Source: Acidithiobacillus caldus ATCC 51756 (GTDB lineage Bacteria > Pseudomonadota > Gammaproteobacteria > Acidithiobacillales > Acidithiobacillaceae). From it: a stretch of DNA of 64,000 nt. Both the position numbers and the translations under genes were made by a program. The stretch covers positions 2,561,001-2,625,000 of the forward strand of contig NZ_CP005986.1 in assembly GCF_000175575.2 (NCBI RefSeq). The letters run 5' to 3'. Below, in pieces: positions 20,677-27,974 of the stretch (positions are counted from its first letter, which is position 1; each line of letters opens with the position of its first letter). Below the pieces are notes generated by a model. It saw only the letters and a list, made by a program, of their open reading frames with translations, ran no database searches and was not told the DNA's origin.

Positions 20677-21263
20677 TGTCCAAAGTGCCTGGCCAGGCAC
20701 CGGAGCGGGCCGCCAACTCTGTCCCGAAGGCCCACTGGGTCGATGGAAAACTGGACCACGCGCACCCCGTGGCCTGGTGGCAGGCGCCCGGCATCGTCCT
20801 GGCACCTGCCGCAGGTCGGTCCGGCGGCCATCTCTGGCAGGTACGGGCACACCGCGGCGAGGATAGCGCCGAGGCAGAGCTCTACCTTGCGCTGCAGCAG
20901 GCGCCCCGAGAAAAGGCCAGCTTCCTGGTACAAGGCGGCGACGTACTCCTCGTTGCCCAGGACAACACCACCCTCAAACCCAAACTGCTGCGTCCGGCCG
21001 CCATCCTCACGGTGTTGCGCCGGGAGTGGCTCCTGAGTCTCTTCCTGTTCGGACCCATTCTGGGCGTCTTTCTCGTCAACCTCATCTTCGGCATGCCCAG
21101 CTTTCTGTGGTGGTCCGCCCTCGCAGTGCTCGTCCTGTCCCTGGCCGTCATGGGTAGCCTCATCCGTAACGACCTCAAGGCATTGCAGAGCTGGGTGGAG
21201 CGCCAGCAAAAACTTGCCGAGACCGCCCTGCAGACGGCCGGTCGTTTACCACCCCATCACTGA
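20676..21263 (+). CDS. Predicted membrane protein with two TM helices, unknown function
   Basis: 195 residues, not recognised. A soluble N-terminal part of about 115 residues (AHPVAWWQAPGIVLAPAAG; FLVQGGDVLLVAQDNTTLKP) is followed by two hydrophobic helices at about 125-165 and a charged amphipathic tail. The start overlaps the lipoprotein stop by one base with no separate ribosome site, implying translational coupling. The 3' end overlaps the convergent FtsI-like gene by seven bases. Confidence 0.65.
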   Translation: MSKVPGQAPERAANSVPKAHWVDGKLDHAHPVAWWQAPGIVLAPAAGRSGGHLWQVRAHRGEDSAEAELYLALQQAPREKASFLVQGGDVLLVAQDNTTLKPKLLRPAAILTVLRREWLLSLFLFGPILGVFLVNLIFGMPSFLWWSALAVLVLSLAVMGSLIRNDLKALQSWVERQQKLAETALQTAGRLPPHH

Positions 21264-22987
21264 CCGCCACCTTCGGACCAGATCTCGGCCTGCGCCAAGG
21301 TAATGCGCGGTGCCTTGAGGGAGCAGACACGTTTGCCACACCACAGGGGCGGCACGTCCATCTCTTCCAGGGCATGTTCCATGGTCACGCGGAATACCGG
21401 AGCCGCCTCCACTCCACCAAAATTCCAGAACTTGTCGCTGTCTCTCAAGGTCACCGCCATGACGAGACGCGGATCGCGCCCTGGGGCAAAACCCACGAAG
21501 GTCGCATTGGTACGGTGGTGAAAAAAGCCGTCCTTGCCATTGGCGATATCCGCCGTGCCCGTCTTGCCCGCTACCTGATACCCCGGAATGGCCGCCAGAA
21601 TACCGGTGCCGTTGGGTTCCGCCACGCTGCGCAGCCAGCGGCGCAGATCGCCGGCAACCCAGGCGGGCATGACGCGCTTGCGCTTCAGCGGTTCACCGAG
21701 AATCAGTTCCGGGCGCACGTGATAACCGCCATTGGCAATGGCAGCGTAAGCATCCGCCAGCTGCAGGGTGGTCACCGACACACCGTAACCAATGGCGATG
21801 GTGGCGTGTCGCGCCTTGCCCCAGTCCTGCCAGGGCGGCAACACGCCGCGGGTAGCGCCCGACAGCCCGAGGCCAAGATGGCGACCGAAGCCGACCGCAC
21901 GATACATGCGATAGATGTCCCGCCTTGGGGTCCGCAGGGCGATCTTGGCCGTGCCAATGCAACTGGAGTACTTCAGAATATGTTCGATATTGAGGACGTG
22001 GTGCAGGACGTCGTCGGTGATGGGGTAGCCGCCGATCCACAGCGGATGCGATACATTGAACCGCGCCGTTGGCGGAACACTGCGGCTGGCAAGGGCGGCG
22101 GCGATGGCAAAGGGTTTCATGACCGAACCCGGCTCGAAGGCCTGGTGCACGGCATTGTCGGTGAAATCGGCAGAACTGCGGCAGCTGGCCAGGTTGTTGG
22201 GATTGCAGCTCGGGACACTCACCATGGCGAGAATCTGTCCGTTACGCACATTCATGACCACCGCCGAGCCGTTGGCGGCACCAAAATGTTTCTGGGCGGC
22301 GCGCAGGGCAACGTAGGCCCAGTACTGGATCTGTGGACTGATGCTGAGACGGATGGGTGAGCCCGGACGGGCCAGGCGTTCGACGCGCGCCACCTGGAGC
22401 ACCTGACCTCTGGGATCCAGCAAGGCCTGTTCACGCCCGCTCTGTCCAGCCAGCCAGCCGTTGAACGCCATTTCCACACCACCGGCGCCGCGATGATCCT
22501 CATCGACGAACCCCACGAGGGGAGCCGTTATCGCCCCCATGGGAAAATAACTTCGGCTGCTGACACTGACCCCCACACCGGCCAGATGCAAAGCCCGCAC
22601 CGCCCGGCCCAGGCGTGGCGCCACCTGACGCCGCAGGTACGCAAAATCAGCACCGCCCGAACGCAATCGTTGGGCGAGCTCCGCGAGGGTCAAGTGCAGG
22701 GTTCTGGCCAGGCTCTGCCAATGCCTGCGCTCCGTCCCCAAGATGCGGGGATCAGCCCAGATCGTCACCGCTGGAACGTTGACGGCAAGGGGTTCTCCGT
22801 TGCGCCCGAGAATGAGCCCGCGCTGGCTGCTGAGGGGAAGGGTCCGCAGGTAGCGCATCCGTCCCTCGGTACGCAGCCGATGATCGTCTTGAATCTGGAG
22901 AGCGAAATCGCGCCCGAGGATGGCGGCAAAGCCCAAAAGGACGATGGCGATGAACCAGCGCGCCCGCCCGGCAGGAAGGGGCCTCAT
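21257..22987 (-). CDS. FtsI/PBP3-like peptidoglycan transpeptidase
   Basis: Class B penicillin-binding protein, 576 residues from ATG 22987 (the frame is open to 23113). One N-terminal membrane helix (about 11-30), a dimerisation domain with LSSQRGLILGRNGEPLAVNVP, then the transpeptidase. The motifs are SVMK with acylated Ser288 and Lys291, and KTGT at Lys475. The middle SxN motif reads SSC (341-343), so the Asn is replaced by Cys343. FtsI normally lies in the division cluster; this gene is beside rlpA and may be the main FtsI relocated or a second class B enzyme. Confidence 0.88.
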   Translation of the reverse strand: MRPLPAGRARWFIAIVLLGFAAILGRDFALQIQDDHRLRTEGRMRYLRTLPLSSQRGLILGRNGEPLAVNVPAVTIWADPRILGTERRHWQSLARTLHLTLAELAQRLRSGGADFAYLRRQVAPRLGRAVRALHLAGVGVSVSSRSYFPMGAITAPLVGFVDEDHRGAGGVEMAFNGWLAGQSGREQALLDPRGQVLQVARVERLARPGSPIRLSISPQIQYWAYVALRAAQKHFGAANGSAVVMNVRNGQILAMVSVPSCNPNNLASCRSSADFTDNAVHQAFEPGSVMKPFAIAAALASRSVPPTARFNVSHPLWIGGYPITDDVLHHVLNIEHILKYSSCIGTAKIALRTPRRDIYRMYRAVGFGRHLGLGLSGATRGVLPPWQDWGKARHATIAIGYGVSVTTLQLADAYAAIANGGYHVRPELILGEPLKRKRVMPAWVAGDLRRWLRSVAEPNGTGILAAIPGYQVAGKTGTADIANGKDGFFHHRTNATFVGFAPGRDPRLVMAVTLRDSDKFWNFGGVEAAPVFRVTMEHALEEMDVPPLWCGKRVCSLKAPRITLAQAEIWSEGGGQ

Positions 22988-23209: not shown

Positions 23210-24307
23210 ATGCCGACACCATCGCCCATTGCCCTATGGCGCTTCGGAGCCTTTGGTATCGTGCTCACTGGGCTTGCCGGCTGCGCCAGCCTGCCGGCGC
23301 ACCACGCTACCTCCAGTACCTTCGGCTACCACGCCGCACGGGTGGGCGCGGCATATTCCAACGGCCAGGTGTGCTACGCACCGTCTCCCGACTTGCAGGC
23401 AGCCTACAATCAGCCCTATGAAATCAACGGTCACTGGTATCACCCTCTGACCACAGCCCGCAACTACGATGTGCGCGGCATTGCCTCCTGGTACGACCGT
23501 GCCTCATCCAGCAGTGTCACGGCCATGGGCACGGCCTTTCATCAGAACGCGCTCACCGCTGCCAGCCGGGTGCTCCCCCTCCCTTCCTGCGTACGGGTCA
23601 CCAACCTCGTCAATGGTCGTAGCGTGCTGGTTCTGGTGGACGACCGCGGCCCTTTCGTATCCGGTCGGGTAATGGACCTGTCCCTGGGTACTGCCCACGC
23701 CCTGGGGATGGTCACACAGGGCACCACCCCCGTGCAGATTCAGGCCGTCGCCAACAGTCCAGGCATGCCGGCGGTCGACAGCCCACAACTGACCCCCGTG
23801 CGCAGCACTATGCCACCCCCCGAGCCCACAGCCGTCACGTCCACGGGAGCGCCCCCCAGTACCTATGCTTCGCCAGCCGCCCAGGCGCGCCTGCAGGCTG
23901 TGGTGGAAGACGCCTTTGCCAGCAATCCCGCGCGGCCCGTGGTGATCGCACATGAGGAGGCGCCCGAGACGGCCCGGGCGCCCGAGGTCGCGCCGACCAA
24001 CACGGCCACCAGAACGCAGCGGCAGCGGCGCCAGCGCAACCCGCAGCCGAGGCAGTGGCCGAGCGCTGGCCTGCAACCGGCTTTGTACCTGATCTCCGCC
24101 GATCCCATGGATCTCGACAGAGCGCGGGAAGAGCAACGCCGCCTGCAGGAATTCGGTATCAGCACCGCCCAGCTGGTAGACGTCCACGGCCGTGGCTACG
24201 CCGTCAGGATCGGCCCCATGGCCCCCACCAGCAGTCCAACCACCTATCTGCGCAGCCTCCGTCGCCTGCGTCTTGGCGACTTTACCGTCAGCCGCGAGAA
24301 CGGCTGA
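23210..24307 (+). CDS. rlpA: Septal ring lipoprotein RlpA (lytic transglycosylase family)
   Basis: 365 residues. Lipobox LAGC near residue 25, a double-psi beta-barrel domain at about 85-175 (RGIASWYDR, LPLPSCVRVTNLVNGRSVLVLVDDRGPF), a Pro/Thr-rich linker, and a C-terminal SPOR-like domain (LYLISADPMDLDRAREEQ) that would bind denuded septal glycan. AGGAGA precedes ATG 23210. The usual TAAH of active RlpA enzymes is TAAS here (Ser119), while the catalytic-type Asp in DDRGPF is kept, so hydrolytic activity is uncertain. Divergent neighbour: the FtsI-like gene. Confidence 0.88.
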   Translation: MPTPSPIALWRFGAFGIVLTGLAGCASLPAHHATSSTFGYHAARVGAAYSNGQVCYAPSPDLQAAYNQPYEINGHWYHPLTTARNYDVRGIASWYDRASSSSVTAMGTAFHQNALTAASRVLPLPSCVRVTNLVNGRSVLVLVDDRGPFVSGRVMDLSLGTAHALGMVTQGTTPVQIQAVANSPGMPAVDSPQLTPVRSTMPPPEPTAVTSTGAPPSTYASPAAQARLQAVVEDAFASNPARPVVIAHEEAPETARAPEVAPTNTATRTQRQRRQRNPQPRQWPSAGLQPALYLISADPMDLDRAREEQRRLQEFGISTAQLVDVHGRGYAVRIGPMAPTSSPTTYLRSLRRLRLGDFTVSRENG

Positions 24308-26126: not shown

Positions 26127-27974
26127 TCAGCCAAAGGCCTGTGCTGGATTCACGACGATGTTGGTGAAGGTTCGGATTTTCAGATTGGGCTTGAGATAGG
26201 CGAGGAAAGCGGCGCGCGCCACGGGCAGGGCCTGCCAGGCATTGGCGCCGCCATCCTCTACCACCGCCGCCACAGCGATACGAGGATGCCGATACGGAGC
26301 CCAACCGATGAACAGCGAATCGTCGTTATAGACCGTGCGGCCATCCTTGAAGGCCACGGGAACCTCTGCGGTACCGGTCTTACCCGCCATGGAAATACCG
26401 GGGTAAGACACCGCCTTGCACGTTCCCCGGGTGACACAGGCACGCATACCACGGCGTACGGCGCGCAAGGCAAAGGCCGGTAGGTGTAATCGGGTAGGTG
26501 CGGGCACGGGCAAGCGGATGCGCCGCCCGCTCTGCGGTTCGATCAACGCCCGGGCCACGTGCAGGTAGGGCAGTTTGCCGCCATTGGCAATGGCCGCCAC
26601 CGCCCGCACCAGCTGTAATGGGGTCACCAAGAGATAGCCCTGGCCGATGCCCAGAATGATGCTGTCGCCGGTATACCAGGGCGCGTGAAAGCGGCGCTCC
26701 TTCCAGGCAGGCGTCGGCACGAAGCCCGGGCTACTGCCGGGGGTGTCGATGGGGGCCTGGCGACCGAAGCCAAAGCGCCACAGCGCCTGATCCTGACGCC
26801 GGATCCCCATTTTCATGGCCAGTTTGTAAAAAAAGACGTCTACGGACCAGGCCAAGGCCTTGGTCAGGCCGGTCTCGCCAAAACCCGCCCGGTACCAGTC
26901 CCAGTAGACGTGCCCACCCACCCGCAGGAAACCCGGGCAGAAGGTGTGAAAATCGGGACCGATGACACGATCCTGCAAGGCCTGCAAGGCGTAGAAGGGT
27001 TTGATGGTGGAACCCGGCGGATACAGTCCCTGGGCCACCCGATCCACCAGGGGCCGTCCCGGTCGCTGCAACAACTCCTGCCAATGGCGGCGGCCGATGC
27101 CGTTCACAAACCAATTGGCGTTGAAGCTCGGATGGCTGACGCTGGCCAGAACCGCGCCGGTGTTGGGGTTGATGGCGACCAAGGCACCGCGATAGTGAAA
27201 TCGGCGCATGACCCGGGCCACGGCCCGCTCCACGCGCAGGCGCAAGGTGGTCTGCAGGGTATCGCCCGGGGTAGGCGGAACCTCCCGCAACTGCGCTACG
27301 GGCTCACCCAGGGCATTGACCTCCAGGATACGGTAACCAAAGCGCCCACGCAGCGCTCGTTCAAAGGCGTATTCCAGACCCGTCACGCCGACGTGTCGCC
27401 GGTACAGGTACTTTTGACGGTCGAAACCCTGCAGATCCGCCGCCGTCACCGGTCCCACGTAACCCACGACACTGCTGAACAAGGGCGAGTAGGGATAGAA
27501 GCGATGCCAGCGCACGGCCAGACTGACGCCAGGGAAATCCTGCTCGCGTACGGCAAAGCGCGCCATCTCGGCCCGGCTCATGTGCGCCATCAGCAAGCGC
27601 GGCAGATAGGCGGGCTTGTCGTCCAGGGTTGCCAGGAGGTGCGCTATGCGCTGCCGCGAAATGGGGAAGCGTTTCGCGAGATCGGTCAGGGTCGCGTGCA
27701 GATGGCGCACCTCGTCGGGAATGATCTCCAAGACATAGCGGGCTCGATTCCCGGCCAATATCTGACCGTGGTAGGCCAGAATGGGCCCCCGCGCTGGCGC
27801 CAGGGGCACGATGGCGCTATGGTTGGCCTGGGCCATCTGGCGAAAGCGCCGGTAGTGCAGGATCTCCATCTCCACGATCCGACCGAGGAGCAGCACGAAA
27901 AGCACCACCAAAAAGAGCACTGCCCAAAAAAGCCGGCGACGAAAGGGATGCTGGGACAGGGGCAAGGGCGACAT
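26127..27974 (-). CDS. mrdA: Penicillin-binding protein 2 (elongasome transpeptidase)
   Basis: 615 residues. Class B PBP of lateral-wall synthesis, with one membrane helix at about 13-32 and a dimerisation domain with the PBP2-type PYSPLFSSVVGYVG and GVTGLEYAFE. The transpeptidase has STIK (acylated Ser322, Lys325), SVD (377-379; PBP2 enzymes carry SxD) and KTGT (Lys532). The frame is open further upstream, but ATG 27974 puts the helix in the normal place. rodA, its usual partner, is not next to it. The gene is divergent from bamD. Confidence 0.93.
   Translation of the reverse strand: MSPLPLSQHPFRRRLFWAVLFLVVLFVLLLGRIVEMEILHYRRFRQMAQANHSAIVPLAPARGPILAYHGQILAGNRARYVLEIIPDEVRHLHATLTDLAKRFPISRQRIAHLLATLDDKPAYLPRLLMAHMSRAEMARFAVREQDFPGVSLAVRWHRFYPYSPLFSSVVGYVGPVTAADLQGFDRQKYLYRRHVGVTGLEYAFERALRGRFGYRILEVNALGEPVAQLREVPPTPGDTLQTTLRLRVERAVARVMRRFHYRGALVAINPNTGAVLASVSHPSFNANWFVNGIGRRHWQELLQRPGRPLVDRVAQGLYPPGSTIKPFYALQALQDRVIGPDFHTFCPGFLRVGGHVYWDWYRAGFGETGLTKALAWSVDVFFYKLAMKMGIRRQDQALWRFGFGRQAPIDTPGSSPGFVPTPAWKERRFHAPWYTGDSIILGIGQGYLLVTPLQLVRAVAAIANGGKLPYLHVARALIEPQSGRRIRLPVPAPTRLHLPAFALRAVRRGMRACVTRGTCKAVSYPGISMAGKTGTAEVPVAFKDGRTVYNDDSLFIGWAPYRHPRIAVAAVVEDGGANAWQALPVARAAFLAYLKPNLKIRTFTNIVVNPAQAFG

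Follow-up and report, generated by a model that had tools for sequence, protein, structure and literature searches.

The FtsI2 gene and its motifs

The window, by which the whole analysed stretch of 64,000 nucleotides from Acidithiobacillus caldus ATCC 51756 is meant, lies in a contig of 2,777,717 bases in a genome of four contigs. The second contig begins with 4 kb that align with two A. caldus plasmid records (88% over 72%). Its minus strand carries, at 21257–22987, the gene of an FtsI-type class B penicillin-binding protein (PBP) paralog of 576 amino acids, here called FtsI2, with an ATG at 22985–22987 and a stop at 21257–21259. A preliminary description had stated that the middle motif of this protein reads Ser-Ser-Cys in place of Ser-Ser-Asn and that the two other catalytic motifs are intact; both statements are borne out by the translated frame. 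The SSC motif (residues 341–343, TCC AGT TGC) lies at codons 21959–21967, where it had been placed, and holds a Cys at the position of the Asn in the FtsI of the division (dcw) cluster. It is flanked on the same strand by the SVMK acylation motif (residues 288–291, 22115–22126) and the KTGT box (residues 475–478, 21554–21565). Among solved structures, the closest chains belong to FtsI/PBP3 proteins; the phmmer alignments inspected, to three of these, place Cys343 opposite the SSN asparagine.

Like housekeeping FtsI/PBP3, FtsI2 combines a PBP_dimer domain (Pfam, E = 3.1e-9) with a transpeptidase domain (E = 1.6e-62), has the SxxK and KTG(T) motifs, aligns over its full length and is nearer to FtsI than to PBP2: identity is 46% to the dcw FtsI of its own genome versus 26–27% to the PBP2s of that genome, 43–44% to the FtsI of the order's other family and at most 41% to those of the other families sampled. 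Unlike housekeeping FtsI/PBP3, it lacks the Asn of the SxN motif, lies outside the dcw cluster and bears additional conserved cysteines; it also stays below the curated NCBIfam FtsI cut-off (326.5 bits against NF011685, cut-off 737), and none of the 15 NCBIfam families listed for it reaches its own cut-off. A residue other than Asn occupies the same site in PBP2/MrdA (class B2, SxD), as it does in the SSD paralog described below, although PBP2/MrdA is an elongation enzyme with which FtsI2 shares only the low identity given above.

Two of the additional cysteines, Cys261 and Cys269 (22181–22207, minus strand), are present in SSC and SSD paralogs, not in housekeeping FtsI, and probably form a disulfide. 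A second pair, Cys550-GKRV-Cys555 (21323–21340, minus strand), lies close to the C-terminus of FtsI2; similarly placed C-terminal cysteines flank a LysM-like tail in a sister subfamily. The C-terminal tail past the transpeptidase domain (21260–21289 in FtsI2) is conserved as well, reading AEIW[SA]EGGG in the SSC and SSD types and W-A-E-G-x-G-D in the SSN types. An AlphaFold2 model of FtsI2 computed with 17 SSC relatives reached a mean pLDDT of 43.7, and no structural claim is built on it.

Class B PBPs of the genome and the FtsI2 block

Ten transpeptidase domains (PF00905) were found in the genome, seven of which are read as class B from length and homology. Four belong to FtsI-type genes, namely dcw ftsI (SSN), FtsI2 (SSC), FtsI3 (SSD) and a LysM-tailed FtsI4 (SSC), and three to PBP2-type genes: PBP2, whose neighbours are rodA and mreBCD-like genes, the window gene PBP2b, and PBP2c. 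There are only two SEDS genes, RodA and FtsW by place, one in each cluster. The genes of the dcw cluster, recognised by eye, run in the order mraZ-mraW-ftsL-ftsI-murE-murF-mraY-murD-ftsW-murG-murC-murB-ddl-ftsQ-ftsA. Its ftsI match (G000:C1:2546074–2547795) and the FtsI2 match (2582260–2583987) are about 35 kb apart, so that FtsI2 does lie away from the division cluster, as had been remarked, and the cluster holds a separate SSN copy of its own.

FtsI2 has as its divergent neighbour an RlpA-family septal lytic transglycosylase (23210–24307, plus strand), followed on the minus strand by a small membrane protein (PF14373, 24364–24663), a voltage-gated potassium channel (NF007828, 24660–25895) and PBP2b (26127–27974), a PBP2 (MrdA)-type class B paralog with an SVD motif. 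The first three of these neighbours recur at 10/10 loci of the 576-residue SSC type (nine relatives and the window) and PBP2b at 8/10; the LysM-type SSC genes examined lie outside the block. Linkage is matched by co-occurrence: PBP2b orthologs (69–89% identity) are found in 16 of the 17 genomes with an SSC-type copy and in none of the 12 others (Fisher p = 2.5e-7, uncorrected for shared descent), the sole SSC-type genome without PBP2b being one that is 85% complete (G013).

In three genomes (G017, G021 and G022, of 1, 4 and 2 contigs) the canonical mrd-type PBP2 was not found while PBP2b and PBP2c are kept. The canonical elongation PBP2 thus seems to have been replaced by its paralogs in these species, which suggests that paralogs of this set are able to carry an essential function.

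Conservation of the cysteine

FtsI copies from 29 genomes of the Acidithiobacillaceae were typed by best match to the four FtsI genes of this genome, the only one in which the actual dcw location of the dcw-type copy was checked. Among copies covering the site, the dcw type is SSN in 27/27 and the FtsI3 type SSD in 28/28, and FtsI2 and LysM types together are SSC in 23/23 genes from 16 of the 29 genomes. A seventeenth genome (G009) has its SSC-type copy as two contig-end fragments (L091, L092) without the motif and is counted among the SSC-type genomes, not among the motif reads. The dcw-type copy was not seen in G023 and G024 at the cut-off used, and 28 of the 30 FtsI3-type rows cover the motif, the exceptions being the second piece of L043 and L091. 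In the SSC copies the cysteine is written with both of its codons (13 TGT, 10 TGC), and dN lies far below dS for FtsI2 (0.094 and 0.893, pairwise, G000 versus G018). The SSC type occurs in g1, g2 and g4, out of four genera covered, so the Cys is old and kept by selection.

An exact search of public genomes for the SSC stretch returned 17 loci, a figure that leaves room for diverged SSC proteins elsewhere and may omit records very near the window genome. Thirteen are from Acidithiobacillus, two from Candidatus Igneacidithiobacillus, one from a 'Proteobacteria bacterium' metagenome-assembled genome (MAG), and one is L189, read from its tree position as a putative Igneacidithiobacillus relative. 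Among 104 FtsI proteins from other families of the phylum, a sample leaning to gammaproteobacteria, 94 are SSN, seven SSD, two SSQ and one SST, and none is SSC. This set comprises L138 from the order search, 29 outside loci, both copies of seven genomes of family f10 and 60 chosen matches; in the phylum samples at most three candidates were scored per genome, among the best matches listed. That a Cys at this site is unusual, as first claimed, therefore holds for FtsI, and a common Cys in ordinary FtsI proteins, which would have told against it, was not encountered in the sample.

The Streptomyces K15 DD-transpeptidase belongs to a different, stand-alone DD-peptidase type and is not an FtsI. 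Like FtsI2, it has a Cys as third residue of the SxN motif, which reads SGC there (PMC12073871), so that a Cys at this site has a precedent elsewhere in the superfamily. The SSQ proteins (L144 and L219, both of family f18) and the SST protein (L221, family f30) come from genomes with one FtsI-type and one PBP2-type gene each, which indicates that loss of the Asn is not linked to acid alone.

Origin of the paralogs

In a tree of 98 rows, made with a quick method and SH-aLRT support, the SSC and SSD paralogs form one clade (support 100) adjoining the family's own SSN copies; within the acidophile family, the SSC clade is supported at 99 and the SSD clade at 96. The tree program warned of long branches joining where the outside rows part from the acid family. 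The order's other family is represented by two genomes and is taken, on the class make-up given in PMC8886135, to be the neutrophilic Thermithiobacillus lineage; it has two class B PBPs per genome, and its FtsI is SSN in 2/2. Taken with the tree, this makes the duplications appear confined to the acidophile family.

A parallel in the Enterobacteriaceae

All seven SSD proteins among the 104 outside FtsI are second copies from family f10, read as Enterobacteriaceae. With four further second copies added, the second FtsI of this family is SSD in 11/11 and the corresponding first copy SSN in all 11, as against second copies in three other families, which are SSN in 5/5 (five genomes, SSN in both copies). 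Two of the f10 second copies were inspected (L176 and L169): each has cspC on one side and rlmA, which encodes a 23S rRNA methyltransferase, on the other, and both flanking genes score above their NCBIfam cut-offs. The same place is occupied by the gene of PBP3SAL, for which penicillin binding and division support in acid only are described, and whose authors remark on an 'SXN/D' motif (PMC5736910). Klebsiella pneumoniae is described as duplicating both PBP2 and PBP3, with expression of both paralogs up about 10-fold at pH 4.8 (PMC13251458).

The f10 SSD copies (five of seven in the tree) cluster with the f10 SSN copies (four of seven) at a support of 100, separate from the acidophile paralogs. 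FtsI2 and the enterobacterial second FtsI thus have separate tree origins and are not orthologs, and the Asn was apparently lost in the two groups independently. Across 141 comparable columns, 21 are changed in the SSD lineage of the Acidithiobacillaceae and six in that of f10; the two columns changed in both correspond to chance expectation (P = 0.22). The telling point is rather that column 343 alone was changed to an identical residue in both lineages, and that this shared change hits one of eight catalytic residues. In the periplasmic part, histidine makes up on average 2.4% of the SSN type, 3.8% of both the SSD and SSC types and 5.1% of the LysM type of the acidophile family; in f10 it is 1.2% for SSN and 2.3% for SSD. 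The mean is raised in the paralogs of both lineages, but SSN and SSD ranges touch, and the figures are uncorrected for descent. An argument from net charge for acid adaptation was abandoned, the periplasmic charge dropping in both SSD types and hardly at all in the SSC types.

FtsI2 resembles PBP3SAL and PBP3PARA in being a second, non-dcw FtsI beside a normal SSN one and in having lost the Asn of SxN; as in K. pneumoniae, a second PBP2 accompanies the second FtsI. Unlike PBP3SAL, FtsI2 has a Cys and not an Asp, which is found in its sister FtsI3. Furthermore, the acid role of PBP3SAL was measured, in hosts of mild acid, whereas FtsI2, for which such a role is proposed, comes from an obligate extreme acidophile.

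Distribution relative to rusticyanin

Rusticyanin exceeds its curated cut-off in eight of the 29 family genomes, none of which has an SSC-type FtsI, versus 17 of the 21 genomes without rusticyanin (Fisher p = 1.2e-4, uncorrected for shared descent). Counted the other way, rusticyanin occurs in 0/17 genomes with an SSC-type copy and in 8/12 without one; the SSD paralog is found in rusticyanin genomes as well. In the tree of the dcw type, two SSC-type genomes without rusticyanin, G013 and G015, sit among rusticyanin-bearing ones. An explanation of the Cys by a lack of iron oxidation was set aside: the negative association is strict in this sample, yet few independent lineages stand behind it, and the idea is therefore kept solely within one of the alternatives discussed below. 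Iron oxidation is described as restricted to one Acidithiobacillus clade (PMC8528912); G024, of genus g4, has rusticyanin over the cut-off and lies outside that clade. A MAG titled A. ferrivorans (G006; L183, L197) has an SSC-type FtsI and no rusticyanin match, and its label may be wrong.

A proposed role for FtsI2 in extreme acid

The explanation to which we give somewhat better than an even chance is that FtsI2 is a specialised second FtsI, predicted to be catalytically competent, whose task in extreme acid is to assume or reinforce septal cross-linking, the loss of the Asn being part of this specialisation. The only FtsW would serve both FtsI2 and the housekeeping FtsI, and FtsI2 would have the equally duplicated PBP2b as its companion. 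This reading is based on the conserved Cys, the otherwise intact catalytic motifs, the low dN relative to dS, the duplication within the family and the linkage and co-occurrence with PBP2b. The earlier suggestion of a specialised transpeptidase is well supported by the separate SSN ftsI in the dcw cluster, the fixation of the Cys in its clade and the co-occurring partner PBP2. Beyond this, we infer that FtsI2 is enzymatically active and that acid is its operating condition. Most likely, the genome encodes an acid-phase set of class B PBPs that resembles the enterobacterial acid paralogs without descending from them.

Peptidoglycan cross-linking in an extremely acidic periplasm requires a lysine to act as a base. 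The Asn of SxN in FtsI positions the substrate amide and packs against the lysine of SxxK. We propose that paralogs working in acid drop this Asn because the polar contact that it makes with the lysine and the substrate would be suited to neutral conditions. The Cys, neutral and less polar, would disfavour the protonated lysine: by removing the polar contact, an uncharged Cys343 might bring down the lysine's pKa and so let it serve as a base even in an acid periplasm. The Asp of the SSD sister paralog would be protonated in acid and thereby become Asn-like.

Several observations count against an acid reading. The housekeeping SSN FtsI is exposed to the same acid periplasm; rusticyanin genomes, which are from acidophiles too, lack SSC copies; the apparent convergence concerns the change from Asn to Asp, and the Cys seems confined to one clade; and PBP2 of class B2, which normally has an Asp at the third SxN position (PMC4038516), works at neutral pH.

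The loss of the Asn from both acid lineages raises the possibility that this residue is part of FtsI function in acid. A wider proposal, offered tentatively, would treat the loss as convergent acid adaptation, with Asp arising twice (Enterobacteriaceae and Acidithiobacillaceae) and Cys in extreme acidophiles, with FtsI2 plus PBP2b and FtsI3 plus PBP2c together forming a complete alternative class B set, and with displacement of the canonical PBP2 in some species. Among the literature matches listed, mostly openly accessible, no paper dealt with FtsI paralogs in Acidithiobacillus or tied loss of the Asn to acid, and a term search of the main text of PMC8886135 and PMC8528912 gave no match for 'penicillin' or 'peptidoglycan'. 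With N, D or C at a single catalytic position, the family has three FtsI types, in many species all within one cell; together with the separate enterobacterial change from N to D, they make the question of cross-linking in acid testable by one-residue swaps. According to a 2026 paper (PMC13251458), acid-type duplication of class B PBPs had been described only for pathogens until then; the Acidithiobacillus case extends it beyond them.

Alternative explanations

FtsI2, RlpA and PBP2b might instead constitute an alternative divisome or elongasome of sulfur oxidisers, serving cell shape, the pole or growth attached to sulfur, with pH playing no part. The conserved block fits such a morphogenetic role, as does the absence of the SSC type from rusticyanin genomes, and the N361S exchange in E. 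coli PBP3 is described as changing pole shape (PMC4038516). The SSD paralog, however, is present in rusticyanin genomes too, the LysM-type SSC genes examined lie outside the block, and where joint duplication of the two class B enzymes was encountered in print, it is acid-induced; we regard this explanation as unlikely.

Less likely still is a low-affinity, beta-lactam-tolerant accessory PBP, in which a Cys in place of the drug-contacting Asn would permit division while FtsI is inhibited and acid would be incidental. The role ascribed to Asn361 in E. coli PBP3 is positioning of the stem-peptide amide between D-Ala and diaminopimelate (PMC4038516), and for this reason the altered beta-lactam binding of FtsI2 that the preliminary description had considered is plausible by analogy. 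Reduced beta-lactam affinity is stated for PBP3SAL (PMC12447407), and the title of the structure paper on the K15 enzyme speaks of 'intermediate penicillin sensitivity'. On the other hand, FtsI2 and its dedicated PBP2 partner are conserved across a family of chemolithotrophs, none of the neighbours scanned was recognised as a resistance or mobile gene, and lasting drug selection in such habitats does not seem obvious.

Returning to the cysteines, Cys343 could be the odd free one of five, its oxidation switching the activity of a redox-tuned enzyme. Of the 23 SSC genes, 22 indeed encode five cysteines and L025 encodes six, two probable pairs leave one over, and rusticyanin-bearing genomes lack the type; the pairing is itself a prediction, however, and the sister paralogs carry a redox-inactive Asp. 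We consider this idea very unlikely. Least credible is a sequencing error, a pseudogene or a dead scaffold, an explanation to which the truncated FtsI4 might lend some colour: the open frames, the invariant Cys in two synonymous codons and the low dN led us to reject error and pseudogene for the window gene, and the retained catalytic Ser and Lys and KTGT box argue against a scaffold.

A LysM domain at the C-terminus of an FtsI-type PBP seems unusual in its own right. FtsI4 (L013, 10092–11327) has lost its N-terminal half and with it the dimerisation domain; a relative, L194, keeps the dimerisation, transpeptidase and LysM domains.
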